NCBI GenBank assembly: GCA_900320865.1
Contig: ONTT01000018.1
Span: 1-33,956 of the forward strand
Length of the DNA: 33,956 nt
Direction: 5' to 3'
Source: an uncultured Bacteroidales bacterium
Lineage (GTDB): Bacteria; Bacteroidota; Bacteroidia; Bacteroidales; Paludibacteraceae
In this document: piece by piece, positions 6,106-33,392 of the stretch
Numbering within the stretch: the first letter of the stretch is position 1
How the letters are laid out: each line of letters starts with the position of its first letter
Notes under the pieces: model-generated
Database searches by the model: none
What the model was told of the DNA's origin: nothing
Seen by the model: only the letters and a program-made list of their open reading frames with translations
Program-made: the position numbers and the translations under genes

Positions 6106-7629
6106 ATGGTTAAACGACTTATTCTCTTAGGCGCCTTTATGGCCGTTTCGTTCTTCGCTACGGCAGAGCGCACATTGGACTCTCTCTTTACCGTTTTAGA
6201 TAAGGAGGTAGCGCAAGCGGATATCTATATCACGCGTCGGCAAGCGATGATTGATTCGCTGCGTGCTGTTCGTCCGATGACAGATGCGGTGCGATTGCAG
6301 ATCGCCGAGGAATATCAGCATTTCCAGAGCGACTCTTCGCGCGCAGGGTATCTGAAGCTGCTAAATGCAGAACCGGCCATTCGTAAGGAAGCTTGTATCC
6401 GCATGGTGCGACTGCTCGCTTCATCCGGTCACTACAGCAATGCCATCGCTGTATGGGAGAAAGAGGACCCGGAGACATTCAAGAGTTCGGAGGGATATAA
6501 GTCAGCATGGTTATTATACAGCGATGTAGCATCGAATGCGCAGATACCCATCATGCAGGAGGAAGCGAAGGCGAAAACGCAGCAGTACTACGACTCGATG
6601 ATGGTGGAGCTGGAGCACGAAGCCGCTTATTCCGAAGAGAGTGCACTTTGGTTAGCCTCCTATCGTGCGCAAGACCGACATGACTGGAATGAGGCGATAT
6701 ACTATAACGAGCAGTTGATGAATCGCTATTCGCCAAACGACAACCAATATGCCATCTTAGCCTACGGTCAGGCTATGCTCTACGAGCAAATGGGAAATCA
6801 GGAGAAACGAATGGAATGGCTCGTTCGCTCCGCTATATGCGATGTGCGCTGCGGAATCACGGACAACGGTTCATCCTGGGTGATTGCGCAAGACTGCTTC
6901 GAAGCGGGAGATATCCGGCGTGCATATAAGCTGAGCGATTACTCGCTAACGAATGCAACGTTCTTCAATGCCCCTACCCGTTTCATTCAGAACTTCACAC
7001 CGGGTCACCTCATTGCTTTGCGTTACGAACATGAGCACCGGCAAGCCACTATTCGACTATCGATAGCGCTGGGACTGTTTGGTTTGGCTCTTATCGCCGC
7101 TATCATCATCGCCGCTCACAGCCGGCGTCAGAACCGGAAGCTTCACCAACTGAATGCCCAGTTATCCGCCATCAATGCGCAGTTGAAAGAGGCCGATAAA
7201 GTAAAAGAGCAGTATATCTGCCGCTATCTGGAGGTTTATAGCGATTATATCCGTCGGTTAACGACCATGGCGCGTAAGGCGGGAGAGAAAGACTCTGCGG
7301 CATTCATGGATCGGGAGATGGAGAACTTCTATCGTTCGTTTGACGACACCTTCCTCTCGCTCTACGGTTCCTTTGTACAGGACTTCAACGCGCTGCTGAA
7401 ACCTGAACTGCGTATCACTCCCAAACCGGGAGAACGAATGACGGTTGAGTTACGCATCTTCGCCCTGATTCTGCTGGGTATCACCAGTAGCGCAAAGATA
7501 GCCGACTTGCTTTGCTACAGCCCGAATACCATCAGTAACTACCGCGTAAAAATGAAAAACGGTGCCCTCGGAGACCGGGACACCTTTGAGCAACGCGTGC
7601 AGCAGATTAGGAACTCGTTTAACGTTTAG
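6106..7629 (+). CDS. DUF6377-type membrane-anchored HTH regulator, 507 aa
   Basis: Residues 1-20 are a signal peptide (VKRLILLGAFMAVSFFATA). About residues 21-310 form a helical repeat (TPR-like) sensor region presumably outside the cytoplasmic membrane. A transmembrane helix (IALGLFGLALIAAIIIA) sits near 315-338 and is followed by an amphipathic coiled coil of about 30 residues (NRKLHQLNAQLSAINAQLKE). The C-terminal part ends in a LuxR-like helix-turn-helix near 460-490 (SAKIADLLCYSPNTISNYRV). The order matches the Bacteroidota DUF6377 family, thought to be one-piece transmembrane regulators with no kinase domain. The target is unknown. It is monocistronic, and its TAG overlaps the convergent peptidase stop by four bases. 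Confidence 0.85.
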   Translation: MVKRLILLGAFMAVSFFATAERTLDSLFTVLDKEVAQADIYITRRQAMIDSLRAVRPMTDAVRLQIAEEYQHFQSDSSRAGYLKLLNAEPAIRKEACIRMVRLLASSGHYSNAIAVWEKEDPETFKSSEGYKSAWLLYSDVASNAQIPIMQEEAKAKTQQYYDSMMVELEHEAAYSEESALWLASYRAQDRHDWNEAIYYNEQLMNRYSPNDNQYAILAYGQAMLYEQMGNQEKRMEWLVRSAICDVRCGITDNGSSWVIAQDCFEAGDIRRAYKLSDYSLTNATFFNAPTRFIQNFTPGHLIALRYEHEHRQATIRLSIALGLFGLALIAAIIIAAHSRRQNRKLHQLNAQLSAINAQLKEADKVKEQYICRYLEVYSDYIRRLTTMARKAGEKDSAAFMDREMENFYRSFDDTFLSLYGSFVQDFNALLKPELRITPKPGERMTVELRIFALILLGITSSAKIADLLCYSPNTISNYRVKMKNGALGDRDTFEQRVQQIRNSFNV

Positions 7630-7644
7630 GGTTTAACGATTTTA
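7617..7644. repeat. period-7 repeat across two convergent stop codons
   Basis: Four heptamers in phase: GTTTAAC, GTTTAGG, GTTTAAC, GATTTTA. They encode the last residues of both the DUF6377 protein (SFNV) and, on the other strand, the peptidase (KIVKP), and contain both stop codons. No hairpin terminator is visible between the two genes. Confidence 0.6.
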
Positions 7645-9617
7645 TCTACGGCACGGAGGATGGGTTCAATAGAGGGCGCTTCTCCTACAGCTTGAATCAT
7701 CCATTGCTTCGGCGTCAAACGTCCTAAACGATAGATACGCGCGTATTCGTTAGCAAACTCCTCCTGCGTCTTATACTGCGCCAGATGTTCCTCCAATTGG
7801 TACTGCACGATATGGCCGAGCGGATAGTTCGGCAAGTACATCGGAGCATTCACCATATGGCTATAAACCGCCAGTAAAATACAGTCATGTTCGCCCAAGA
7901 CGGGTTCGTAATAACGATTCCAAATCTCTTTCGCGATCTGTTGCGTAGCTTCGCATAGTTCTTTCGGCGTAGCCTTCGGATGCGCATAGATCCATTTCCA
8001 CATCTGCATATCTACCAGACTGACTCCCATGATCTCGTACATGGACCAGAACTGGTCGAAGACTTCGTCTTGCGACATCTCAGATTTTTGATTGGTGATT
8101 GGTGATTGGGGTAATAACTGCAGGTCGCGGTGTTGCCAGAGGAAAGCAGATGCTTCCGTATAAGCCGTATTGGGTACACCGGAGAGCATATAATGGTCAA
8201 TCTCGTACATATCCAGCACCTGCTCCACGCAATGGCCGAACTCATGCACGGCGATGTTATATCCCTTATAATCCATACCTGACGCGGGTATACGTGTGCG
8301 CAAACGCGCTTCTTCCTTTCGCCCCAAAGACGGCCATGCATGACCGGAACCGCGGGCAGGTTCCACCACGATATGGCTTGCAATAGATTGCGCTTCCTTT
8401 GCATCAAAACCCATCTTCTGCAACAGACGCGGCATGTCTTTCTCAAACGCCTCTGCATCCGGATAGAGTACACGCGTGGTAGCGGTCAACGCATCCTCGT
8501 CCATCGAAGCACGGGCTTTGAACCCATCGAACCAGATATCGTACGGACGAAGGTCACGACCCAAACGAGCACGGATAACGTCCGCCACTTCTTTCACCTG
8601 CTCCGAACCCACCAAAGCGCGGAAGAGACTATCCAACTCCGCCGCAGGAAACTCCATTCCCTCTTCGAAATTACGGATGATACCTGTTGGCGCCGTCGGG
8701 CAGTATGGATCTTCTTCGAAATAGGCGTGCGCCACTTCCAGAATACGCTCATAACGCGTGTAGGGTTCCGGATTATTTGTGATTTGTGATTCTTGATTTT
8801 TGATTTGGTTGCAATAAGGATGCCAGAGGTATTCGCCGTTATTGATCACCGCTTGCGGGATGGTCTGGTTCACAATACGTTGCATCACCTTATAGATCAT
8901 CTCTTGCTTCTCCTGTCCATCTTCAGCCGCATACTGCGCCTTGAGTTCGTCGCGCAGGTTCCAGTGACTCAACAGCACTTTATCTTCCGGCCAGAGTTGA
9001 CGACCGTCTTCCGTACGCAGCGAACCCATGTAGATATTATAATCCGCGATATAATTCTCTGCATTCGCCATCGCCTGCGCCATGCGGGCTTTTGTAGCCG
9101 CCGGAACACGCGTGGTGAACACATCGCCCATACGAGCAAAAGCCCACTGCTGACGATTCCAATCCGCTCCCAAACGATTCTTCTGATCCAGCGTATAATG
9201 CGGGAAATTGAGGATGGTGATGAACGCCAGTTGGTTGGCGAACATATCATCGGAGAAATGCGCTAAGGGGCTATAAGCGGACATGATCCAATCGGGTGTC
9301 TGCGGTTCCGCCGCATTGGTGAGTTGGGTAGGACGGAGCAGTTCGACCGTCAACATATCGGCCGACTGGAAACAATTCTCCAGGATTCGGCTGAGCGACT
9401 CATACAGCGCTACCCTTTCGCTATCAGTAGCGCAGGTATATTCTTGCGCGAGTTGCTCGAAGTCCGTTTGCGAACCATCGATAGCGGTCCACAGCGCTTG
9501 GGCTTGTTGCACGCCGCAAGGGGCATCGGAGTTATTCACTTGCATAGGGGCTTGATCCGTGCGGGCACAGGCGCATAACAGCCCTACCGCACAAAGAATA
9601 AATATCGATTTTTTCAT
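7626..9617 (-). CDS. M3-like zinc metallopeptidase lipoprotein, 663 aa
   Basis: The signal sequence ends in a lipobox-like LCAC with Cys17, so it is probably a periplasmic or outer-membrane lipoprotein. The zinc site is HEFGH at residues 458-462, with Glu488 (YTEASAF) as the likely third ligand; the 29-residue spacing fits thimet-oligopeptidase-like M3 enzymes (clan MA). The helical N-terminal half also fits the M3 fold. The overall sequence is divergent and the substrate, probably oligopeptides, is inferred. Two short Asn/Gln-rich segments, around residues 271-282 (QIKNQESQITNN) and 503-512 (SPITNQKS), are encoded by period-7 DNA repeats and look like later insertions. It lies 31 nt after the OmpA-like gene, probably in one transcript. 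Confidence 0.82.
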   Translation of the reverse strand: MKKSIFILCAVGLLCACARTDQAPMQVNNSDAPCGVQQAQALWTAIDGSQTDFEQLAQEYTCATDSERVALYESLSRILENCFQSADMLTVELLRPTQLTNAAEPQTPDWIMSAYSPLAHFSDDMFANQLAFITILNFPHYTLDQKNRLGADWNRQQWAFARMGDVFTTRVPAATKARMAQAMANAENYIADYNIYMGSLRTEDGRQLWPEDKVLLSHWNLRDELKAQYAAEDGQEKQEMIYKVMQRIVNQTIPQAVINNGEYLWHPYCNQIKNQESQITNNPEPYTRYERILEVAHAYFEEDPYCPTAPTGIIRNFEEGMEFPAAELDSLFRALVGSEQVKEVADVIRARLGRDLRPYDIWFDGFKARASMDEDALTATTRVLYPDAEAFEKDMPRLLQKMGFDAKEAQSIASHIVVEPARGSGHAWPSLGRKEEARLRTRIPASGMDYKGYNIAVHEFGHCVEQVLDMYEIDHYMLSGVPNTAYTEASAFLWQHRDLQLLPQSPITNQKSEMSQDEVFDQFWSMYEIMGVSLVDMQMWKWIYAHPKATPKELCEATQQIAKEIWNRYYEPVLGEHDCILLAVYSHMVNAPMYLPNYPLGHIVQYQLEEHLAQYKTQEEFANEYARIYRLGRLTPKQWMIQAVGEAPSIEPILRAVDKIVKP
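8083..8110. repeat. in-frame heptamer array inside the peptidase gene (GATTGGT type)
   Basis: Four consecutive 7-mers on the plus strand: GATTTTT, GATTGGT, GATTGGT, GATTGGG. Read on the minus strand they encode SPITNQKS. The reading frame is kept through the array. It lies about 15 codons after the third zinc ligand. Confidence 0.8.
8772..8806. repeat. in-frame heptamer array inside the peptidase gene (TTGATTT type)
   Basis: Five 7-mers on the plus strand: ATTATTT, GTGATTT, GTGATTC, TTGATTT, TTGATTT. On the minus strand they encode part of NQIKNQESQITNN. The unit is close to the TGATTTA/TGATTTC units found between rpoA, rplQ and aspS. Confidence 0.8.
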
Positions 9618-10797: not shown

Positions 10798-10799
10798 CG

Positions 10800-10874
10800 T
10801 GGTCCCACTTGGGCTTGAACCAAGGACCCCCTGATTATGAGTCAGGTGCTACTAACCAACTGAGCTATAGGACC
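10800..10874 (-). tRNA. tRNA with CAT anticodon (Met, or Ile2 after lysidine modification)
   Basis: A full cloverleaf is visible on the minus strand: acceptor GGTCCTA/TGGGACC with discriminator A, anticodon arm CCTGA-CTCATAA-TCAGG, variable loop GGGTC, and T arm CTTGG-TTCAAGC-CCAAG. CCA is not encoded. It is not the initiator, since the three G-C pairs in the anticodon stem are absent. C4-G69 and C5-G68 would suit TilS recognition (Ile2), while the D and variable loops look like elongator Met, so the amino acid is left open. The D arm carries one extra T (GGTTAGTAGC where GGTTAGAGC is usual), leaving a mismatch or bulge. Confidence 0.9.
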
Positions 10875-12703: not shown

Positions 12704-13702
12704 ATGGATATTTTGGAACAAATGATCGCGCGTGCGAAGGCAAATCCGCAGCGCATTGTATTGCCGGAAGGCGATGAACCCCGTACGCTGGAAGCAGCGA
12801 ATATTCTGCTTCGCGATAAGATCGCGCACATCATCCTGATCGGTGATCCGAAGAAGATCGGTCAGATGGCCGCAGAGAAGGGTTATGAGTTTATTCAAGA
12901 GGCCAAAATCGTAGATCCGTTGAACGATCCGAAGATGCCGGAATATGCAAACCTGCTCTTTGAGTTGCGTAAAGCAAAAGGCATGACGGAGGAGGAGGCG
13001 AAGAAGAAAGCGCAAGATCCTTTGTACTTGGGTTGCTTGATGATCAAGGCCGGCGATGCGGACGGCGAGTTAGCCGGTGCGCGTGGTACGACAGCGGACA
13101 CGATTCGTCCTGCTTTCCAGATTCTGAAGACTCGTCCCGGATGCTCGATTGTAAGCGGTGCATTCTTGATGTTCACTCCGGCTAAACAGCTGGGCGAAAA
13201 CGGTTTCCTGCTCTTCGCAGATTGCGCTGTAAACCCGAATCCGGATGCCAAACAATTAGCGGAGATCGCTGTTTCGACAGCCGAGACTGCACGCGCTATT
13301 GCGGGCATCGAGCCGCGCGTAGCGATGTTGAGTTTCAGCACGAAGGGAAGTGCAAAACACGAGTTGGTAGATAAGGTAGCCGAGGCTACAAAACTGGCGA
13401 AAGAGATGGCTCCGGATGTACAGATTGACGGTGAGTTACAGGCTGATGCAGCGCTCATCGAGAGCGTAGCCAAGACCAAAGCGCCGGGTAGTCCGGTTGC
13501 CGGTAAAGCAAACGTATTGGTCTTCCCGGACCTGCAAGCCGGTAATATCGGATACAAACTCGTAGAGCGTTTCTCGGGTGCCGATGCAGTAGGACCGATT
13601 CTGCAGGGTATCGCAGCACCGGTAAATGACCTGAGCCGTGGCTGCAAAGTACAAGACATCGTGCAGATGGTAGTTATCACAGCGAATCAAGCAATTCGCT
13701 AA
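12704..13702 (+). CDS. pta: phosphate acetyltransferase, 332 aa
   Basis: Converts acetyl-CoA and phosphate to acetyl phosphate and CoA in the cytoplasm, the first step of acetate fermentation. It is the short form, without the N-terminal DRTGG/BioD-like domains of E. coli Pta. Family strings include RIVLPEGDEPRTLEAA at the N-terminus, GAVRGT-like ELAGARGTTADTIRPAFQI, SGAFLM, FADCAVNPNPDAKQLAEIA, and PGSPVAGKANVLVFPDLQAGNIGYKLVER near the C-terminus (seen in pieces). The length fits the ~330-aa family. It is first in the operon, with ackA starting 53 nt downstream across a heptamer repeat array. Confidence 0.96.
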   Translation: MDILEQMIARAKANPQRIVLPEGDEPRTLEAANILLRDKIAHIILIGDPKKIGQMAAEKGYEFIQEAKIVDPLNDPKMPEYANLLFELRKAKGMTEEEAKKKAQDPLYLGCLMIKAGDADGELAGARGTTADTIRPAFQILKTRPGCSIVSGAFLMFTPAKQLGENGFLLFADCAVNPNPDAKQLAEIAVSTAETARAIAGIEPRVAMLSFSTKGSAKHELVDKVAEATKLAKEMAPDVQIDGELQADAALIESVAKTKAPGSPVAGKANVLVFPDLQAGNIGYKLVERFSGADAVGPILQGIAAPVNDLSRGCKVQDIVQMVVITANQAIR

Positions 13703-13751
13703 GCTGAAAGTTGAAAGTTTAAAGTTTAAAGTAGAAAGTTTAAAGTTACAA
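13703..13751 (+). repeat. seven-unit heptamer array between pta and ackA
   Basis: It begins at the base after the pta stop codon and runs to 4 nt before the ackA ATG. Units in order: GCTGAAA, GTTGAAA, GTTTAAA, GTTTAAA, GTAGAAA, GTTTAAA, GTTACAA. It fills the whole intergenic gap and contains no hairpin that I can see. Confidence 0.85.
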
Positions 13752-13755
13752 TATC

Positions 13756-14946
13756 ATGAAAATCTTAGTTTTAAACTGCGGAAGTAGCAGTATCAAGTAC
13801 AAGCTCTTTGAGATGGAGAGCAAGAAAGTAATGGCACAAGGCGGAATCGAGAAGATCGGTTTGCCGGACTCGTTCCTGTTGGTTAAACTGCCCAACGGCG
13901 AGAAGGTGAAATTCGAGAAACCGATGCCTGAACATACCGTGGGTATTGAATTGATTTTGGAGAAACTGGTGGATCCGGAGATTGGTTGCATCAAAGATCT
14001 CAAGGAGATCAACGCCGTAGGTCACCGCGTAGTGCATGGTGGCGAGAAGTTCAACAAATCCGTGCTCATTACTCCGGAGGTAAAGGCCGAGATCATCAAG
14101 TGCGTGGACTTGGCTCCGCTGCATAACCCCGCTAACCTGAAGGGTATCGATGCGATTGAGAAGATCTTACCGAGCGTTCCGCAAGTAGCTGTCTTCGACA
14201 CCGCTTTCCATCAGACGATGCCGGATTACGCATACATGTACGCCATTCCGTACGAGCTCTACGAGAAATATGCCATCCGTCGTTACGGTTTCCACGGAAC
14301 CAGTCACCGTTACGTAAGCGCTCGCGTTTGCGAGTTCCTGGGCGTTGATCCGAAGAAGCAGAAGATCGTTACCGCTCATATCGGAGGTGGTGGCAGTTGC
14401 GCCGCTATATTGAACGGCCAATGCGTAGACACCAGTATGGGTCTGACGCCTGTGGAAGGTCTGGTAATGGGTACACGTGCCGGTGACCTCGACTTGGGTG
14501 CTGCTACCTTTATCATGGATAAAGAGCACCTGAACACAGCGCAGTTTAACGAACTCGTGAATAAGAAATCCGGTTTGCTCGGCGTAAGCGGTGTATCGAG
14601 TGACTGCCGTGATATCGAGGCAGCTATCAAAGCCGGCAACAAACGGGCTGATTTGGCACGTAAGATGTTTATCTATCGCACCGTGAAATATATCGGCGCA
14701 TACGCAGCAGCCATGAACGGTTTGGATATTCTGGTCTTCACAGCCGGTATTGGCGAGAACGATCCGTATATCCGCGCGCAAATCATGAAGGGACTCAGCT
14801 TCCTCGGCATCGAGGTGGATGAAGAGGCCAACAACGTACGCGGCGAAGAGCGTATCATCTCTACCCCGAATTCAAAGGTAAAAGTATGCCTCATCCCGAC
14901 GGACGAAGAACTGATGATCGCTTCGGACACCGAAGCGCTGATCTAA
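13756..14946 (+). CDS. ackA: acetate kinase, 396 aa
   Basis: Transfers phosphate from acetyl phosphate to ADP, giving acetate and ATP, and completes the Pta-AckA route. ASKHA-fold signatures are complete: Asn7 in VLNCGSSSIKY, GHRVVHGGEKF, FDTAFHQTMP, RRYGFHGTSHRYV, the phosphate loop HIGGGGSCAAI, MGLTPVEGLVMGTRAGDLD, and FTAGIGENDP. The length is as usual for the family. It lies directly downstream of pta, so the two form an ATP-yielding acetate operon. The GH13 gene follows 35 nt later. Confidence 0.97.
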   Translation: MKILVLNCGSSSIKYKLFEMESKKVMAQGGIEKIGLPDSFLLVKLPNGEKVKFEKPMPEHTVGIELILEKLVDPEIGCIKDLKEINAVGHRVVHGGEKFNKSVLITPEVKAEIIKCVDLAPLHNPANLKGIDAIEKILPSVPQVAVFDTAFHQTMPDYAYMYAIPYELYEKYAIRRYGFHGTSHRYVSARVCEFLGVDPKKQKIVTAHIGGGGSCAAILNGQCVDTSMGLTPVEGLVMGTRAGDLDLGAATFIMDKEHLNTAQFNELVNKKSGLLGVSGVSSDCRDIEAAIKAGNKRADLARKMFIYRTVKYIGAYAAAMNGLDILVFTAGIGENDPYIRAQIMKGLSFLGIEVDEEANNVRGEERIISTPNSKVKVCLIPTDEELMIASDTEALI

Positions 14947-14980
14947 GATTTTGAGATTATAGATTTGATATTTCGTATTT
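14946..14980 (+). repeat. degenerate heptamer array between ackA and the GH13 gene
   Basis: Five 7-nt units starting on the last base of the ackA stop: AGATTTT, GAGATTA, TAGATTT, GATATTT, CGTATTT. The next base begins AATG, the start of the GH13 gene, so the array fills the intergenic gap. Confidence 0.6.
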
Positions 14981-14981
14981 A

Positions 14982-21063: not shown

Positions 21064-21083
21064 TAAAAATGCATTTTTTACTC

Positions 21084-21106
21084 GTTTAAGGTTTAAAGAG
21101 TGGTGA
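21084..21106. repeat. short heptamer array 3' of dprA
   Basis: GTTTAAG and GTTTAAA in phase, followed by the weaker units GAGTGGT and the first bases of GATTAGC. It abuts the dprA stop (21107-21109) on its 3' side. GTTTAAA is the same unit as in the pta-ackA array. Confidence 0.45.
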
Positions 21107-25426: not shown

Positions 25427-26827
25427 ATGAAACGAATCTTACTTATTTGGTGCGCTGTACTTTGTACACTGTACTCTTTCGGCGAACTCAAGTACGTCTT
25501 CTATTTCATTGGAGACGGGATGGGTAGCAATCAGGTGTTAGGCGCAGAGATGTATCGTTCGGCATTGCAGGGCCAACCGCTCGGGCGTGTACAGACGCTC
25601 ATGACGACTTTCCCGTATTCGGGTAGCGCTTCTTCGTATTCGAAGAGCAATGGTATCACAGACTCTGCTGCCGCAGGTACGTGTCTGGCGACCGGAAAAA
25701 AGACCAAAAACGGTATGCTGGGTCTGGATCAGGACTCCGCTTTTATCCCTACGATCGCAGAGGAACTGAAGGCGCAGGGATGGGGAATCGGCATCATGAC
25801 GACGGTTGCTATCGACCATGCTACGCCGGCTGCCTTCTACGCGCACGTGCCCAAGCGCAATAAATATTATAGAATAGGAGAGCAATTGATTGAGAGTAAG
25901 TTCGATTTCTTCGGCGGGGCAGGATTCCATCATCCGCAAGGCAAACACGACGACAAGAAGGTGAACCTCTACCGGGCAGCAGAAAAGCAAGGTTACGTGA
26001 TTGCACATGGGTACGAAGAAGCCGTCAGTCTTCAGAAGTCAGATATCAGTAAGATGATTCTGGTTCAGAAAGACGATGACCAGGGAGCCAAGCACGGCGA
26101 TAACTTACGCCAGGCCATTGACCGGAAAGCAGGCGACCTGACCTTAAAACAGATTGTCAGTACGGCCATCCCGTTTCTGAACTCCCGTTATGACCGATTC
26201 TTTATGATGGTAGAAGGCGGAATGATCGACTATGCTTGCCATGGCGACGATGCGGCTACAGCGTTCGGCGAAGTATGGGATATGGACGAAGCGATGCGCG
26301 TGGCATACGATTTCTATCTGGCGCATCCGGACGAGACACTGATTGTAGTAACGGCTGACCATGAAACGGGCGGAATGGCATTGGGCAACAGCGACTACAC
26401 CTTGCATCTCGATTTGCTGCATAACCAGAAGTGTTCCCAATGGATCATCAGCGACCTTTTCTCGCAACTATTCAAAGACAACAAGAAACCCACTTGGGAG
26501 CAGGTACAGACCATCTACCGCGAGCAGTTAGGTTTCTGGGAGTCCGTAGAGATCACAAGCGACGAAGAGAAGGAACTGAAAGCGCTTTATAAAGCAGCCT
26601 GTGCCAAGAAGACCAAAGACACCAAAACGATGTATAAAAGCATCAACAAACTGGGAGAAGCCGGAGTGGCATTGCTCAATAAGAAAGCCCATGTCGGTTG
26701 GACTACCTTCGCGCATACTGCGCACTCCGTTCCGATCTTCTCTACCGGCGTGAATGCAGCGCTCTTCTCCGGATGGCACGATAATACGGAGATCGCTCCG
26801 CTGATATTGAAAGCGATTAAGGAGTGA
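25427..26827 (+). CDS. alkaline phosphatase, PhoA family, 466 aa
   Basis: A secreted phosphomonoesterase with signal peptide 1-19 (MKRILLIWCAVLCTLYSFG). Metal ligand Asp30 is in YFIGDGMGSNQ, and nucleophile Ser80 in GITDSAAAGTCLATGKKT. Other metal sites are DHATPAAFYAH, MMVEGGMIDYACHGDD, VTADHETGG and the late His in VGWTTFAHTAHSVPIF. It is expected in the periplasm with two Zn and one Mg. It probably shares a transcript with the DUF5063 and exonuclease genes (4-nt gap). The upstream in-frame ATG at 25334 lies inside the exonuclease gene and is rejected because it hides the signal peptide. Confidence 0.92.
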   Translation: MKRILLIWCAVLCTLYSFGELKYVFYFIGDGMGSNQVLGAEMYRSALQGQPLGRVQTLMTTFPYSGSASSYSKSNGITDSAAAGTCLATGKKTKNGMLGLDQDSAFIPTIAEELKAQGWGIGIMTTVAIDHATPAAFYAHVPKRNKYYRIGEQLIESKFDFFGGAGFHHPQGKHDDKKVNLYRAAEKQGYVIAHGYEEAVSLQKSDISKMILVQKDDDQGAKHGDNLRQAIDRKAGDLTLKQIVSTAIPFLNSRYDRFFMMVEGGMIDYACHGDDAATAFGEVWDMDEAMRVAYDFYLAHPDETLIVVTADHETGGMALGNSDYTLHLDLLHNQKCSQWIISDLFSQLFKDNKKPTWEQVQTIYREQLGFWESVEITSDEEKELKALYKAACAKKTKDTKTMYKSINKLGEAGVALLNKKAHVGWTTFAHTAHSVPIFSTGVNAALFSGWHDNTEIAPLILKAIKE

Positions 26828-26851
26828 CAGAATGAAAGAGTGAAAGAAAAA
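26824..26851. repeat. weak heptamer run 3' of the phosphatase gene
   Basis: GTGACAG, AATGAAA, GAGTGAA, AGAAAAA in phase from the phosphatase stop codon to the terminator. The units are diverged, so this is the least certain of the period-7 stretches. Confidence 0.3.
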
Positions 26852-26880
26852 GAGGGGCGCCGAAGCGTCCCTCTCTTTCG
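26845..26880. terminator. terminator between convergent phosphatase and secreted-protein genes
   Basis: GAGGGGCGC (26852-26860) pairs with GCGTCCCTC (26865-26873) with one wobble pair. Read on the minus strand the loop is the stable UUCG tetraloop and the stem is followed by TTTTTCTTTC, a good terminator for the 1070-aa gene. In the plus direction CTCTCTTTCG follows, a weaker tract for the phosphatase operon. Confidence 0.85.
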
Positions 26881-26895
26881 TATTCACTATTCCAT

Positions 26896-29800
26896 CTATT
26901 CAACCAGAATTCCTAGTGCATTATAGGTCTTCTCGCCCTTGATGATCAGGATCTGACCATTGCGGAGCACTTTGATTGCCTGAACACCATCGTTGGTGAT
27001 GTTGATATCCACCGTGCTGGTCGGGACCACATACAGGCATCCTGCGAACCAATCTTCGCCGCCTTGGTAATCCGGACGGAAATAGATGGTAGTAGCACCT
27101 GCGTGGTTGGCATCTACACCGTAGTTATCTCCCTCGGCGGGGAACCATGTAGTAATTACATCGTCCGCTACATAAACCACTTTCAGCGAGTCTTCAACAG
27201 CCAGCGTAATGTTCAACTGATATTCTTTGTCGTTTTCGGGATTTACAGCAAACAACTTCGCTGCGGACAGGTCTTCAACAGACCAAGCATCCACGCCGCT
27301 GAACTTACCTACGAGATAGTAACCGTCTGCCAATTTCGGTTCCGGTTTATCCGGGAAGGTAATTCCGATGGAGTCGTTAGCAAACGTCCAAGTGAACAAG
27401 TACTTACCCGCTACATCGGCCGTAACTTTCAAGTTCTCGGTCGCTTCGTCTACGACTCCTGCTACGCCCGGCCATGTACGATGCAGACCATAAGGCTCAC
27501 CTCCGTTCGCCTTGGTGATCCACTTGCCATCCTTGATGAGTTTAAATTCATAATCACCCTTCTCAAGCGACACCTCATAGGTAGCGGTCAACGAGTCTGC
27601 TGCGAGTACCATGTTATTTACAATCCAGTTCTCGCCTTCCATATCCCACTGACCTGCGATCTGCATTACCGGGAACGGTTTGATATACTTACCAACTACC
27701 GTTGCAACCAATGTACTATCTTCCGGATTGAAGCTGAAGTATGCTGTGTCTTTTTCCGCAACACCAGCAATCTCGGCAAAGTACTTACCGTTACCTTCTG
27801 CTGCACTATGAATATTCATACCGCCGCCATAGTAAACGATTGTGTCGGTCAGCCACTTGCCTTCCTTCTCGGTCAGCAACTTCCAGTTCCACTCACCGGC
27901 CTTGTCAGCGTATTTCGCATAGTACTTCGTATCCGGTTTCGGGATTACAACGCTTACTATCAGCTGATCTTCCTTGATAACCAAGGTTACAGGATAATCA
28001 CCTTCTTTCGTCGTCTGCAGGCCAACATTCTTTTGGTTCTTTTCGCCTTCTGACTTATAGATATACCAACCGGTACTATTGCCATACTCCATCGTAACAT
28101 CGCCATCGAGACCATACCAAGCAGTATCCGTTCCTTGTACGCGCACAATCTTATAGAGATAGAGGCTGTCTGCTTTGAGGTTCAACGCCACACCGAGGCT
28201 GTCGGTCTTCTCCTCCAACGGAAGGAGTTCAACCATCTCGTCTTTCCAGTTAGTCATCGTACCTGCCACGTAGTAATGGATAGCAGGAGCAACATACTTG
28301 CTGATGAGCGATACGTTCAGCGTCGTGTCAACCGGATTGAAGCTGAACTGAACGGTGTCAAGTTCGGCAATCTCATCACCTGCGATCGGACGTACACCTT
28401 CTTCCTCAACGGTGTTACTGAAGAACATGTTACCTTCATCGGATGCCTTCACATTGATATTAACGCCAATACCCGCATATACAATCGTGTCGGTCAGCCA
28501 CTTGCCTTCCTTCTCGATCAACTGTGCCCACTCCCAGTTCGGTGCGTATTTAGCATAGTAACGAGCCGGGATGGTAACGCTTACCTCCAGATGGTCTTCT
28601 TTTACTTTCAGTACGAACGGATAAACCGCTTCTTTCGTCGTCTGCAGGCCAACATTCTTTTGGTTCTTTTCGCCTTCTGACTTATAGATATACCAACCGG
28701 TACTGTTGCCATACTCCATCGTAGCCTCTCCATCGAGACCATACCAAGCAGTATCCGTTCCTTGTACGCGTACAATCTTATAGAGATAGAGGCTGTCTGC
28801 TTTCAGATTGAGCGCCACGCCGAGGCTGTCGGTCTTCTCCTCCAACGGAAGGAGTTCAACCATCTCGTCTTTCCAGTTAGTCATCGTACCAGCAATGAAA
28901 TAATGAGGAATCTCAACAACGAAGTTACCTACCAATTTGAAGACTGGAGTCTCGCCGTCTTTGTATATAACCTGAACATCACCTGCCTCGTTCAACTTGA
29001 AGCCGATGTTGTGGTCATTGCTGATATCCTTCAAACCTGGGGTCTTCTCCGTCAACTCATTGTAACCCTTTATGTTGTTTTCGCCTACCCATGTGCCGTT
29101 CAGCGTCAGTTTCAAGATATACTCCTGACCGGCTTTCAGGTTCTTCAACGTGAATGTATCGGTCTCCGACTTAATTGCATCGGGATTCCATGCCTTACCC
29201 GGAGCACCGGCATCGGTTACCAACGCAGAGTCACCTGTGATATAGAATTTCGCAGGAATGACTGGTTCTCCATGCTTCGACCAAGTACCGTTACACTCGC
29301 TTCCCGTACCGCCGGAAGTTACCGTAAACCAGTCATTGTCATTCGTTGGAGCGGTCAGATCTACCGTCTGACTCCATTTATTAGAATCCCAAGCCGGAGC
29401 TGTCGCTTCACTATTAAAACGGACAAAGATCAACTTGTCATAACCCGCAGGAATAGTTCCAATATAGGTATTGCCCTCTTCGGGAACGGCCGTCATGAAC
29501 TCCGACCATCCGTTCTGAGTGTTATCGGAACTCTTAAAATAGTAGATTGCATACTTCGCAGGCCAACCAGCCCAGTCCGAACTCAACGTCAGATAATACG
29601 TCTTCGTAGTAGAAGCCTCTGCCTCTTCGTAAGTTACTACAACTGACTTTACATACAAAGCCTTTTTCGCAGAAGCTGCTTTAGCAAGACGCACTACGAT
29701 TTCGCCACTGGCACTACCCTCAAAGGTGTAGTCTGTTGCGGAAGCTGAAACTGCTGCAGTAGTCTCGCTCTCACATGTGAACGCATCCTCGCCCACAGTG

Positions 29801-30108
29801 ACAGAAACACTTGCAGAAACGCCAGATGCAGCACTTGCGTTTACGACCACACTTGTAATCGTACCTGCAATGTCGCTGGTCGAGAGTTGAATGTAACCTA
29901 CAGCAGCACTACCCGTACCATAGTGGATACCTTTGGTAGCATCGTAGGCAGACTCCGTGCCATCGGAAGTAATTGTCCATGCTGCTTCATCATCGGCTGT
30001 TCCTGTACCGCCACATGCAGCTGTAAACGTCAAAGTTGACGTTGACGGAGTTGCAAATAATACTCCGGCAAACAGCACAGCCATCAAAATAGAAAAGATT
30101 TTTTTCAT
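26896..30108 (-). CDS. large secreted modular protein, possibly glycan-binding, 1070 aa
   Basis: Signal peptide 1-19 (MKKIFSILMAVLFAGVLFA). Residues about 20-160 form a Thr/Ser/Ala-rich beta domain. Later modules carry YFIAGTMTNWKDEM-type starts and tail strands resembling starch-binding (CBM48/SusE-F-like) Ig folds; this is a structural guess. Two modules (about 404-612 and 613-820) are nearly identical over 87 residues and descend from a 627-bp duplication. Further modules start with MQIAGQWDMEGENW and YYLVGKFSGVDAW. The C-terminus (KVLRNGQILIIKGEKTYNAL) matches the tail of the 1376-aa protein. No enzyme motif was seen. It is monocistronic with its own promoter and terminator. Likely cell-surface or secreted. 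Confidence 0.85.
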   Translation of the reverse strand: MKKIFSILMAVLFAGVLFATPSTSTLTFTAACGGTGTADDEAAWTITSDGTESAYDATKGIHYGTGSAAVGYIQLSTSDIAGTITSVVVNASAASGVSASVSVTVGEDAFTCESETTAAVSASATDYTFEGSASGEIVVRLAKAASAKKALYVKSVVVTYEEAEASTTKTYYLTLSSDWAGWPAKYAIYYFKSSDNTQNGWSEFMTAVPEEGNTYIGTIPAGYDKLIFVRFNSEATAPAWDSNKWSQTVDLTAPTNDNDWFTVTSGGTGSECNGTWSKHGEPVIPAKFYITGDSALVTDAGAPGKAWNPDAIKSETDTFTLKNLKAGQEYILKLTLNGTWVGENNIKGYNELTEKTPGLKDISNDHNIGFKLNEAGDVQVIYKDGETPVFKLVGNFVVEIPHYFIAGTMTNWKDEMVELLPLEEKTDSLGVALNLKADSLYLYKIVRVQGTDTAWYGLDGEATMEYGNSTGWYIYKSEGEKNQKNVGLQTTKEAVYPFVLKVKEDHLEVSVTIPARYYAKYAPNWEWAQLIEKEGKWLTDTIVYAGIGVNINVKASDEGNMFFSNTVEEEGVRPIAGDEIAELDTVQFSFNPVDTTLNVSLISKYVAPAIHYYVAGTMTNWKDEMVELLPLEEKTDSLGVALNLKADSLYLYKIVRVQGTDTAWYGLDGDVTMEYGNSTGWYIYKSEGEKNQKNVGLQTTKEGDYPVTLVIKEDQLIVSVVIPKPDTKYYAKYADKAGEWNWKLLTEKEGKWLTDTIVYYGGGMNIHSAAEGNGKYFAEIAGVAEKDTAYFSFNPEDSTLVATVVGKYIKPFPVMQIAGQWDMEGENWIVNNMVLAADSLTATYEVSLEKGDYEFKLIKDGKWITKANGGEPYGLHRTWPGVAGVVDEATENLKVTADVAGKYLFTWTFANDSIGITFPDKPEPKLADGYYLVGKFSGVDAWSVEDLSAAKLFAVNPENDKEYQLNITLAVEDSLKVVYVADDVITTWFPAEGDNYGVDANHAGATTIYFRPDYQGGEDWFAGCLYVVPTSTVDINITNDGVQAIKVLRNGQILIIKGEKTYNALGILVE
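28002..28263. repeat. direct repeat copy A within the 1070-aa gene
   Basis: A 262-bp stretch matched by 28629-28890 at an offset of exactly 627 bp (209 codons). By eye the two copies differ at about a dozen positions, clustered in two short patches. It encodes the carboxy-proximal copy, starting YYVAGTMTNWKDEM. Confidence 0.9.
28629..28890. repeat. direct repeat copy B within the 1070-aa gene
   Basis: Partner of 28002-28263. It encodes the amino-proximal copy, starting YFIAGTMTNWKDEM. The protein on either side of the repeat (YYAKYA...EGKWLTDTIVY) is only moderately conserved between the two modules. Confidence 0.9.
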
Positions 30109-31822: not shown

Positions 31823-31826
31823 AACT

Positions 31827-31861
31827 CAATTTGAGATTTATGATTTCAAATTTATGATTTA
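31827..31861. repeat. heptamer array between rplQ and aspS
   Basis: Five plus-strand units: CAATTTG, AGATTTA, TGATTTC, AAATTTA, TGATTTA. It fills the gap and ends in the rplQ stop codon. Twenty of the 21 bases at 31841-31861 match 32371-32391 in the rpoA-rplQ gap. Confidence 0.8.
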
Positions 31862-32353: not shown

Positions 32354-32363
32354 AATAATAAAT

Positions 32364-32398
32364 CAATTTATGATTTCAAATTTATAATTTATGATTTA
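32364..32398. repeat. heptamer array between rpoA and rplQ
   Basis: Five plus-strand units: CAATTTA, TGATTTC, AAATTTA, TAATTTA, TGATTTA. It occupies almost the whole 46-nt gap and abuts the rpoA stop. It is nearly the same as the array between rplQ and aspS. Confidence 0.8.
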
Positions 32399-32399
32399 A

Positions 32400-33392
32400 T
32401 TAATCCAGCGCACGATAGCGCGAGATGTCCATACCAAAGGCGAGGCCGTTGCGCTCGAGCAGTTCGTCGAGTTCGGTGAGGGATTTCTTACCGAAGTTAC
32501 GGAACTTGAGCAGGTCAGCGCGGTGGTACTTAACGAGTTCGCCAAGAGTCTCTACTTCAGCAGCCTTCAAGCAGTTGAGAGCACGCACGGAGAGGTCCAT
32601 GTCTTGCAGTTTCTGGTTGAGGAGTTGACGCATACGGAGGATTTCCTCGTCGAGTGCGTTGCTGTTCTTCTTGGTCTCCTCTTCGAGAACGATACGCTCG
32701 TCAGAGAAGAGCATGAAGTGGTAGATGAGGATCTTAGCGGCTTCGGTGAGTGCCTGTTGCGGGGCAATCGAGCCGTCCGTAGTAATCTCAATGGTCAGCT
32801 TCTCGTAGTCGGTACGTTGCTCGACACGATACTGGTCAACCGAAATCATGACGTTACGGATAGGCGTGTAGATGGAGTCGATAGCGAGCGTTCCAATCGG
32901 ATCGTCTTTCTTACGATTCTCATCACCGGGCACGTATCCGCGACCCTTGTTGATCGTAATCTCAATCTCAAAATCCGCTGAGTCGTCCATCTCTGCGAGC
33001 TGGAGATCGGGGTTGAGCACCTCGAAGTTCTGCAGGGCAGCGTTGAACTCACCGGCGAGGAAGGCTTTCTGCTTGTGGACATGGAGTTTGACTGTTTCAG
33101 TCTCCTCTTCGATGCCCTCTTTGTGGAGGAAGCGAACCTGCTTGAGGTTGAGGATAAGGTTAGTAACGTCAGTGATTACACCGGGGATCGTAGCAAATTC
33201 ATGATCAATACCACTGATCTTGACAGAGCAGATGGCATAGCCTTCAAGGCTGCCAAGCAGTACGCGACGAATCGCGTTGCCTATCGTGATTCCATACCCC
33301 GGCTCGAGTGGGCGAAACTCAAAGATACCTTTGTTCGCACTCGAATCCAACATTATAACCTTGTCAGGTTTGATGAAATTTAATATTGCCAT
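32400..33392 (-). CDS. rpoA: DNA-directed RNA polymerase subunit alpha, 330 aa
   Basis: Dimerises to seed RNA polymerase assembly and contacts activators and UP elements through its C-terminal domain. The N-terminal domain shows [20 protein letters not shown] and [15 protein letters not shown], and the middle [12 protein letters not shown]. The C-terminal domain (about 250-320) has [22 protein letters not shown] and [16 protein letters not shown] with the usual helix-hairpin-helix. The length is normal. rpsD lies 11 nt upstream and rplQ 46 nt downstream, the standard bacterial order. Confidence 0.98.

Follow-up and report, generated by a model that had tools for sequence, protein, structure and literature searches.

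The pta-ackA locus and its heptamer arrays

The window, the whole stretch of 33,956 nucleotides analyzed here, is one complete contig (C20) of a draft genome of 1.97 Mb (65 contigs, 82.65% completeness). It encodes phosphate acetyltransferase and acetate kinase in tandem, and the closest relatives of the acetate kinase (93 to 96% identity) are from uncultured Bacteroidales or Paludibacteraceae bacteria, several of them from rumen or reticulum. The gap between pta and ackA is filled by heptamers (lag-7 score of 25 over positions 13700 to 13755; P = 0.0005), as the first-pass annotation of this DNA had described (Table 1). The null for every place in the window was 2,000 dinucleotide shuffles of its own stretch, compared by lag-7 score.

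The same annotation had listed period-7 runs at seven places, each next to a stop codon. Those after pta and rpoA and across the convergent stops hold, and the signals 3' of ackA, dprA, and rplQ are marginal, losing significance once corrected for seven tests. The run 3' of the phosphatase gene (26825 to 26895) instead has a period of 8 (lag-8 score of 10, lag-7 score of 5, P = 0.056), and Tandem Repeats Finder likewise gives period 8. Two strong arrays absent from that list lie in frame within a single gene. The array at 8083 to 8109 is missing in most orthologs of this gene, another heptamer occupying the site in one of them, and the second variable loop carries an AAAGTCG array in one ortholog. 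A tblastn search with the host protein against 80 acetate kinase loci gave no match.

Elsewhere in the window, a perfect 10-nt tandem repeat (CTAAAAAGTC, 3.7 copies) occupies positions 504 to 540, between the contig end and a gene at 799; the contig end beside it resembles the beginning of a minus-strand 16S rRNA gene. A tRNA-Met gene (anticodon cat) lies between two OmpA-family genes (10799 to 10874, minus strand), and a 1,070-aa open reading frame (26896 to 30108) has no Pfam match at 1e-5.

Table 1. Genes and heptamer arrays of the window
Feature	Positions	Strand	Evidence or remark
pta, phosphate acetyltransferase family	12704..13702	+	PF01515
ackA, acetate kinase	13756..14946	+	PF00871
Heptamer array, AAAGTTT/AAAGTTG type, pta-ackA gap	13701..13747	+	Tandem Repeats Finder, 6.7 copies
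Weak heptamer array, GATTTNN type, gap from ackA to alpha-amylase-like gene	14947..14981	+	P = 0.020
Heptamer array, AAATCAT/AAATTAT type (sense strand), rpoA-rplQ gap	32354..32399	-	P = 0.0025 (32354-32402)
Weak heptamer array, rplQ to asparaginyl/aspartyl/lysyl-type tRNA synthetase gene	31823..31858	-	P = 0.047
Short heptamer array, CGTTTAA, across two overlapping convergent stops	7616..7638	.	P = 0.0025 (7605-7650)
Marginal heptamer signal 3' of dprA	21081..21106	-	P = 0.018
Host gene of two in-frame arrays, 663-aa protein with HEFGH motif	7626..9617	-	no Pfam match at 0.001
In-gene array, AATCACC, in frame, encodes PQSPITNQKS	8083..8109	-	P = 0.0005
In-gene array, AAATCAA/AAATCAC, in frame, second variable loop	8775..8807	-	P = 0.0005

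Period 7 across the genome

The genome was sampled from 41 sources totaling 703,924 bases (704 kb, 36% of the window's genome), taken at round coordinates and including several long contigs already known from earlier sequence matches. A simple codon-usage script, which missed some genes and starts, called 476 genes in this sample. At a lower cut-off, period-7 arrays number 159 in the 704 kb, against 0 to 20 for each of seven other periods. At a score of ≥14, period 7 yields 83 intergenic and 44 in-gene arrays, and any other lag from 4 to 21 yields at most 9 and 10, respectively.

Tandem 7-nt units exceed chance, as in heptanucleotide simple sequence repeats. The 288 gaps of ≥21 nt contain 62 arrays, compared with 0 to 2 in 20 dinucleotide-shuffled sets, which rules out a chance origin and bears out the earlier expectation of a genome-wide excess over shuffled gaps. 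In co-directional gaps of 15 to 59 nt (n = 108), self-match at lag 7 is 0.554 versus 0.327 expected, with echoes at lags 14 (0.528), 21 (0.500), and 28 (0.450). The DNA 3' of convergent genes shows 0.307 versus 0.262 expected, a second count of convergent gaps gives 0.335 versus 0.260, and the DNA upstream of divergent genes in the sample has no lag-7 excess (0.290 versus 0.297). Array densities per kilobase follow the same order: 1.96 in ++ gaps, 1.00 in -- gaps, 0.57 in convergent gaps, and 0.18 in divergent (-+) gaps.

Placement and folding of gap arrays

The period-7 arrays are a real, genome-wide signal, and placement 3' of stop codons is part of the pattern. Of the 82 arrays in co-directional gaps, 62 start between -15 and +6 nt relative to the end of the stop codon, and in 47 the far end lies between -9 and +12 nt relative to the next start codon. 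The arrays therefore run from stop to start and fill gaps rather than being tied to the stop alone, and the enrichment at stop codons arises because the co-directional gaps that they fill begin there. The association with stops that was proposed at first sight thus stands, and a stop-specific placement does not.

Array gaps fold weakly, with a mean minimum free energy (MFE) of -0.043 per nt (n = 42) versus -0.109 in 62 other gaps. They fold like their own dinucleotide shuffles, however (mean z of -0.12, n = 42), and selection for unstructured leaders was rejected on this ground. The pta array alone folds somewhat better than its shuffles (-7.2 versus -4.1, standard deviation [SD] of 1.8). The statement that the arrays form no hairpins agrees with the folding of array gaps overall, with the pta array as a partial exception, and the weak mean folding of the 42 array gaps speaks against the stable G+C-rich hairpin before a T run that marks an intrinsic terminator.

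Repeat units and stop codons

The 159 arrays fall into 61 canonical units, where random 7-mers drawn from gaps would give approximately 132. The commonest are AATCACC (14 arrays), AAAAATC (12), AAAGTTG (11), and AATTACC (11), and gap arrays show flavors as diverse as AAAGTTT, AAAGGTG, GATTTTA, AAATCAT, AATTGGT, AATCACC, CTGAATA, and GGTTAGA. Arrays occur in both orientations. That units differ between loci had been recognized from the window. In a sample of the genome of UBA3653 (G006; L129 to L133 and L331 to L350), 101 arrays of period 7, 29 of period 8, and 28 of period 11 were found.

Nearly all arrays (152 of 159) have units with no more than three G or C letters. Among the 103 units with at least two, 74 lack either G or C altogether in the window's genome, with 37 expected. 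UBA3653 shows this bias weakly (38 of 84, 29 expected) and HUN156 not at all (21 of 49, 22 expected), and G- or C-free units were rejected as a general rule. Variation within units of the window's genome is somewhat clustered at neighboring positions (436 of 512 mismatch cells versus 413, SD of 7, in phase permutations). A step with a four-base anchor and a three-base extension was considered in this connection and not retained: the effect is modest in the window's genome, weak in UBA3653 (203 versus 196.5, SD of 4.4), and absent in HUN156 (144 versus 148).

A repeated heptamer that contains a stop codon presents a stop in all three frames within 21 nt and so ends any frame that enters it. Some gap units carry a stop on one strand alone; the ratio of sense-strand to antisense-strand cases is 36 to 15 in the window's genome, 17 to 9 in UBA3653, and 11 to 15 in HUN156. 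In-gene units reverse this relationship (9 to 28 in the window's genome and 2 to 25 in UBA3653), and units of arrays lying fully within a gene are stop-free on the sense strand in 38 of 49 cases in the window's genome, 47 of 49 in UBA3653, and 9 of 14 in HUN156. The idea that arrays guard gene ends as frame-independent stop cassettes draws on the strand bias of gap units in the first two genomes and is barely credible: the bias fails in HUN156, 20 of the 82 gap arrays of the window's genome have no sense-strand stop, and many arrays lie inside genes.

Arrays within protein-coding genes

One-third of the arrays (54 of 159) are in called genes; the 44 in-gene arrays that score ≥14 lie mostly within them, four running over the gene's stop. 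In-gene arrays are 26 to 59 nt long. All 19 array-bearing proteins chosen from the list of in-gene arrays have Pfam matches, including SUFBD core (SufB type), Aminotran_5 (cysteine desulfurase, SufS type), UPF0004/Radical SAM/TRAM (MiaB type), Flavoprotein/DFP (CoaBC type), Dus, a branching enzyme-type amylase, RlmN_N/Radical SAM, and others. The encoded peptides are hydrophilic, for example, KSPITNHQSQIAN in the SufB-type protein and SQKSKVESRK in the SufS-type protein. At the array site, 14 residues are missing from the best solved SufS structure (5vpr) and 12 from the best solved MiaB structure (7mjv).

Orthologs of four array-bearing genes were collected from the same genus and from more distant genomes, and 83 of 86 were examined, three SufB frames being too short. 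These 83 orthologs (119 kb of coding sequence) contain 14 arrays, 11 of which occupy the same loop as the array of the window's genome, mostly with other heptamers; 8 of the 11 were flagged by script, and 3, in two SufS genes, abut the SufS loop in the alignment. The SufB loop has AATCACC in the window's genome and AACAGCC in G186. The SufS loop has AAAGTCG, AAATCTC, and AACTATC in the window's genome, G197, and G189, respectively. The MiaB loop has AAATCTC/AAATCAA in the window's genome, AATCACC in G177, an AAGAGCC type in G186, and TCAACGC in G188. The MiaB arrays of G174 and G175 share an AAATC core with that of the window's genome and may be inherited. The remaining three ortholog arrays are near MiaB residue 225 in two genomes and near SufS residue 101 in one. 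In most other orthologs, the array site is an ordinary loop of short length.

Turnover in orthologous gaps

Gap arrays turn over between related species. Of 19 species, 6 carry a period-7 array in the pta-ackA gap, with six different units. Pairs of orthologous co-directional gaps were drawn, not independently of one another, from the neighborhoods of 20 sources (the window and 19 relatives): 262 pairs have no array, 98 have one, 19 have two arrays with different units, and 2 have the same unit, so that the unit differs in 19 of the 21 pairs in which both gaps bear arrays. Only 7 of 11 array-bearing gaps exceed in length the median of their array-free orthologs, which makes replacement as likely as insertion.

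One array departs from this pattern. The first 78 nt after the ackA stop, in 7/8-nt steps with a non-repeat tail (ATAGAAAGACAC), are 90 to 100% identical in four species (L031, L041, L042, and L044) whose ackA third positions are only 59 to 74% identical; between L031 and L042, the values are 100% over 78 nt and 60%, respectively. Identity so far above that of ackA third positions is not explained by vertical neutral descent, and this array may have been either put to use, with a conserved function, or recently exchanged. Between L031 and L042, the identity looks like constraint on one array and counts against a filler model.

Dispersal within and among genomes

Units are characteristic of genomes. 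The probability that two arrays from one genome have a common unit is 0.031 in the window's genome, 0.037 in UBA3653, and 0.071 in HUN156, and sharing between these genomes is 0.007 to 0.011. Overall within-genome sharing is 0.036 versus a mean of 0.020 and a maximum of 0.023 in 1,000 permutations of labels (324 arrays, three genomes). Longer sequences are also shared: in the window's genome, one 31-nt stretch is common to three genes, and 109 unlinked pairs of arrays share ≥21 exact nt, more than in any of eight unit-order shuffles (42 to 92). The same test gave no excess in UBA3653 (51 versus 36 to 60) or HUN156 (30 versus 36 to 62), so that signs of copying between loci are not seen everywhere.

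A composite family, defined by an 80-base array of 7/8-nt steps from the 3' side of ackA in another species, has at least 42 matches in G003 (one genome with G206, as the places of the matches are identical), at least 48 in UBA3653, at least 36 in G007, and at least 58 in G232; among the matches listed, 3 are in the window's genome and 4 to 13 are in each of five others. Twenty copies fetched from UBA3653 are in both orientations and at unrelated places, mostly gene ends, with one in a called gene. Step order, judged by eye, is kept in approximately 17 of the 20 (L222 and L226 lack the third step, and L229 ends in it), an agreement due in part to the copies having been selected by similarity.

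Array density is uneven and the trait is therefore patchy, even within the genus. Densities per 100 kb are 19.6 in the window's genome, 16.7 in G206, 15.0 in G201, 14.0 in UBA3653 (first 100 kb), 10.0 in HUN156, 8.6 and 3.9 at Paludibacteraceae loci, 6.2 in G177, 6.0 in G185, 1.2 in G173, and 0.7 at Bacteroides-type loci. No arrays were found in two other families of the class or in an Escherichia coli control of 50 kb. One genome was compared per species, and the smaller comparison sets hold few gaps (13, 9, 9, 15, and 4). Among 148 genomes sampled across the phylum, 32 have a second flavor pattern. The record of HUN156 is not titled as a metagenome-assembled genome and carries arrays, which speaks against a binning artifact. 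The draft genome of the window also holds second copies of SufB-type (in pieces, C21:330-1898) and SufS-type (C45:101-1297) genes, with 75 to 84% identity, which may derive from a related species whose DNA entered the bin.

Origin of the arrays

The arrays are most plausibly a heptanucleotide filler that disperses and turns over quickly and that selection restricts to permissive sites, a reading to which we assign a probability of approximately 0.55. Slippage during replication or repair would lengthen and shorten arrays in steps of 7 nt, a length that, according to the available text of PMC4679880, Mrazek (2007) considered suited to polymerase slippage. Arrays may in addition be copied from one locus to another, unlinked one; microhomology-guided template switching at breaks is one possible route. 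Purifying selection would act as a sieve, eliminating harmful arrays so that those in protein loops and operon gaps persist. Placement next to stop codons would follow, as the permissive gap begins there and stop-bearing units end any frame, and no regulatory role would be needed. The first-pass annotation had offered slippage-prone spacers, a selfish micro-repeat, and RNA-processing or protein-binding sites as readings. Slippage and a selfish repeat fit best because of the in-gene loops, both orientations, turnover, and genome-specific flavors; a processing or binding site should keep its sequence in place, which arrays mostly do not, the four-species array 3' of ackA being the exception. The excess of G-free and C-free units, which a filler model does not predict, counts against it, as does the lag-7 excess in convergent gaps.

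A more far-reaching form of this reading, which we put forward tentatively, is molecular drive in some Bacteroidales: active, lineage-specific writing in 7-nt steps and copying between loci may continually convert unconstrained DNA to heptamer arrays, overwriting operon gaps and surface loops of essential enzymes, and sister species would for this reason differ in the heptamer-coded peptide at a given loop. If true, protein loops could evolve by this route, and the arrays would provide a natural map of tolerated genome change.

Arrays may instead have arisen locally, each by slippage from a chance 7-mer seed and with no copying, the flavors reflecting a genome-specific mutation or slippage bias. 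The lack of a unit-order excess in two of three genomes is in line with such an origin, a biased process could give the clustered within-unit variation, and among long repeats, heptamers are the most frequent class in several unrelated bacteria (Mrazek 2007, as cited in the available text of PMC4679880). Local slippage accounts poorly, however, for the small number of units relative to random gap 7-mers, for unit sharing that is genome specific, for the excess of long exact matches between unlinked arrays in the window's genome, and for a composite family dispersed in four other species, and we regard it as rather unlikely.

Selection might also keep operon-gap arrays as spacers, either as unstructured leaders or as RNA-processing or protein-binding sites. 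Open leaders may matter in Bacteroidetes, which generally lack Shine-Dalgarno sequences (PMC3155529, available text), and the weak folding of array gaps per nucleotide and the strong conservation of the ackA 3' array in four species agree with this. Yet dinucleotide shuffles fold just as weakly, arrays also lie within coding genes, no lag-7 excess exists upstream of divergent genes in the window's genome, and sequence, strand, and presence vary between related species. A selected spacer is therefore improbable.

Insertion by a dedicated mobile element, driven by a transposase or reverse transcriptase and resembling a MITE or a Rickettsia palindromic element, would suit the high copy number of the composite family in four genomes, its scattering in both orientations in UBA3653, and in-frame placement within genes, as described for Rickettsia elements in the available text of PMC10969869. 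It is very improbable: inspection of the 20 fetched copies by eye showed neither inverted termini nor constant ends, the flavors are many and unrelated, and a search of 2.9 million viral contigs gave only 9 stretches with the AATCACC array pattern, a result that also led us to reject carriage by phages. An analogy to DNA uptake sequences was rejected in view of the many flavors per genome.

Relationship to other repeats

According to the available text of PMC4692102, heptameric repeats lie near stops between aligned open reading frames (ORFs) in Xanthomonas (GGGAATC) and Nostoc (GGGGA(C/T)T); each has one G-rich consensus capable of forming G-quadruplexes, with four units preferred and underrepresentation in coding regions. 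The arrays described here share the preference for aligned over divergent ORFs. Unlike those repeats, they have no single G-rich unit and are made up of many A/T-rich flavors, with a third of them in called genes.

The first-pass annotation knew of no name for this class in Bacteroidota, which is not quite right. TAACTGA direct repeats have been reported from Beggiatoaceae, cyanobacteria, and five Bacteroidetes, including Paludibacter propionicigenes; in the main genome of that study, they are mostly just upstream of start codons, and related heptamers are rare as repeats (PMC4679880, available text). They resemble the present arrays as intergenic heptamer direct repeats, and two tandem TAACTGA units occur in a single gap of the window's genome (L119:3410-3453). 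They differ from the cloud of related units found here, led by AATCACC, AAAAATC, AAAGTTG, and AATTACC.

Rickettsia palindromic elements are selfish insertions of approximately 150 bp, in frame and with a conserved peptide per family (Ogata 2000, 2002, as cited in the available text of PMC10969869). Both systems place short, dispersed DNA in frame within unrelated metabolic genes; the present arrays are weakly folded tandem heptamers of few units rather than palindromes of that length.

The ingredients of the system are thus known separately, and what looks new is their combination: many flavors, dispersal specific to species, and enzyme loops that were occupied independently more than once. 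In the open-license literature, we found no description of multi-flavor heptamer arrays inside housekeeping genes of Bacteroidota. The tandem heptanucleotides of Calothrix are named STRR. Several heptamer flavors occur in one Calothrix genome, as cited in the available text of PMC4692102, and the likeness to the present arrays is one of description alone.

If the filler reading is right, a repeat process, and not functional selection, has written some of the operon spacers and enzyme loops of these gut bacteria, and such spacers should be taken for regulatory sites only with caution. The arrays would also offer a testable case for the recurrence of 7-nt repeats in unrelated bacteria and a natural experiment in which the SufS-, SufB-, and MiaB-type enzymes of related species carry different repeat peptides at one loop. 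The MiaB loop has a further occupant: a dispersed repeat with longer, G+C-richer units around GAAGCGGTC is present there in L267, L268, and L271 and, as its reverse complement, in the pta-ackA gap of L046.
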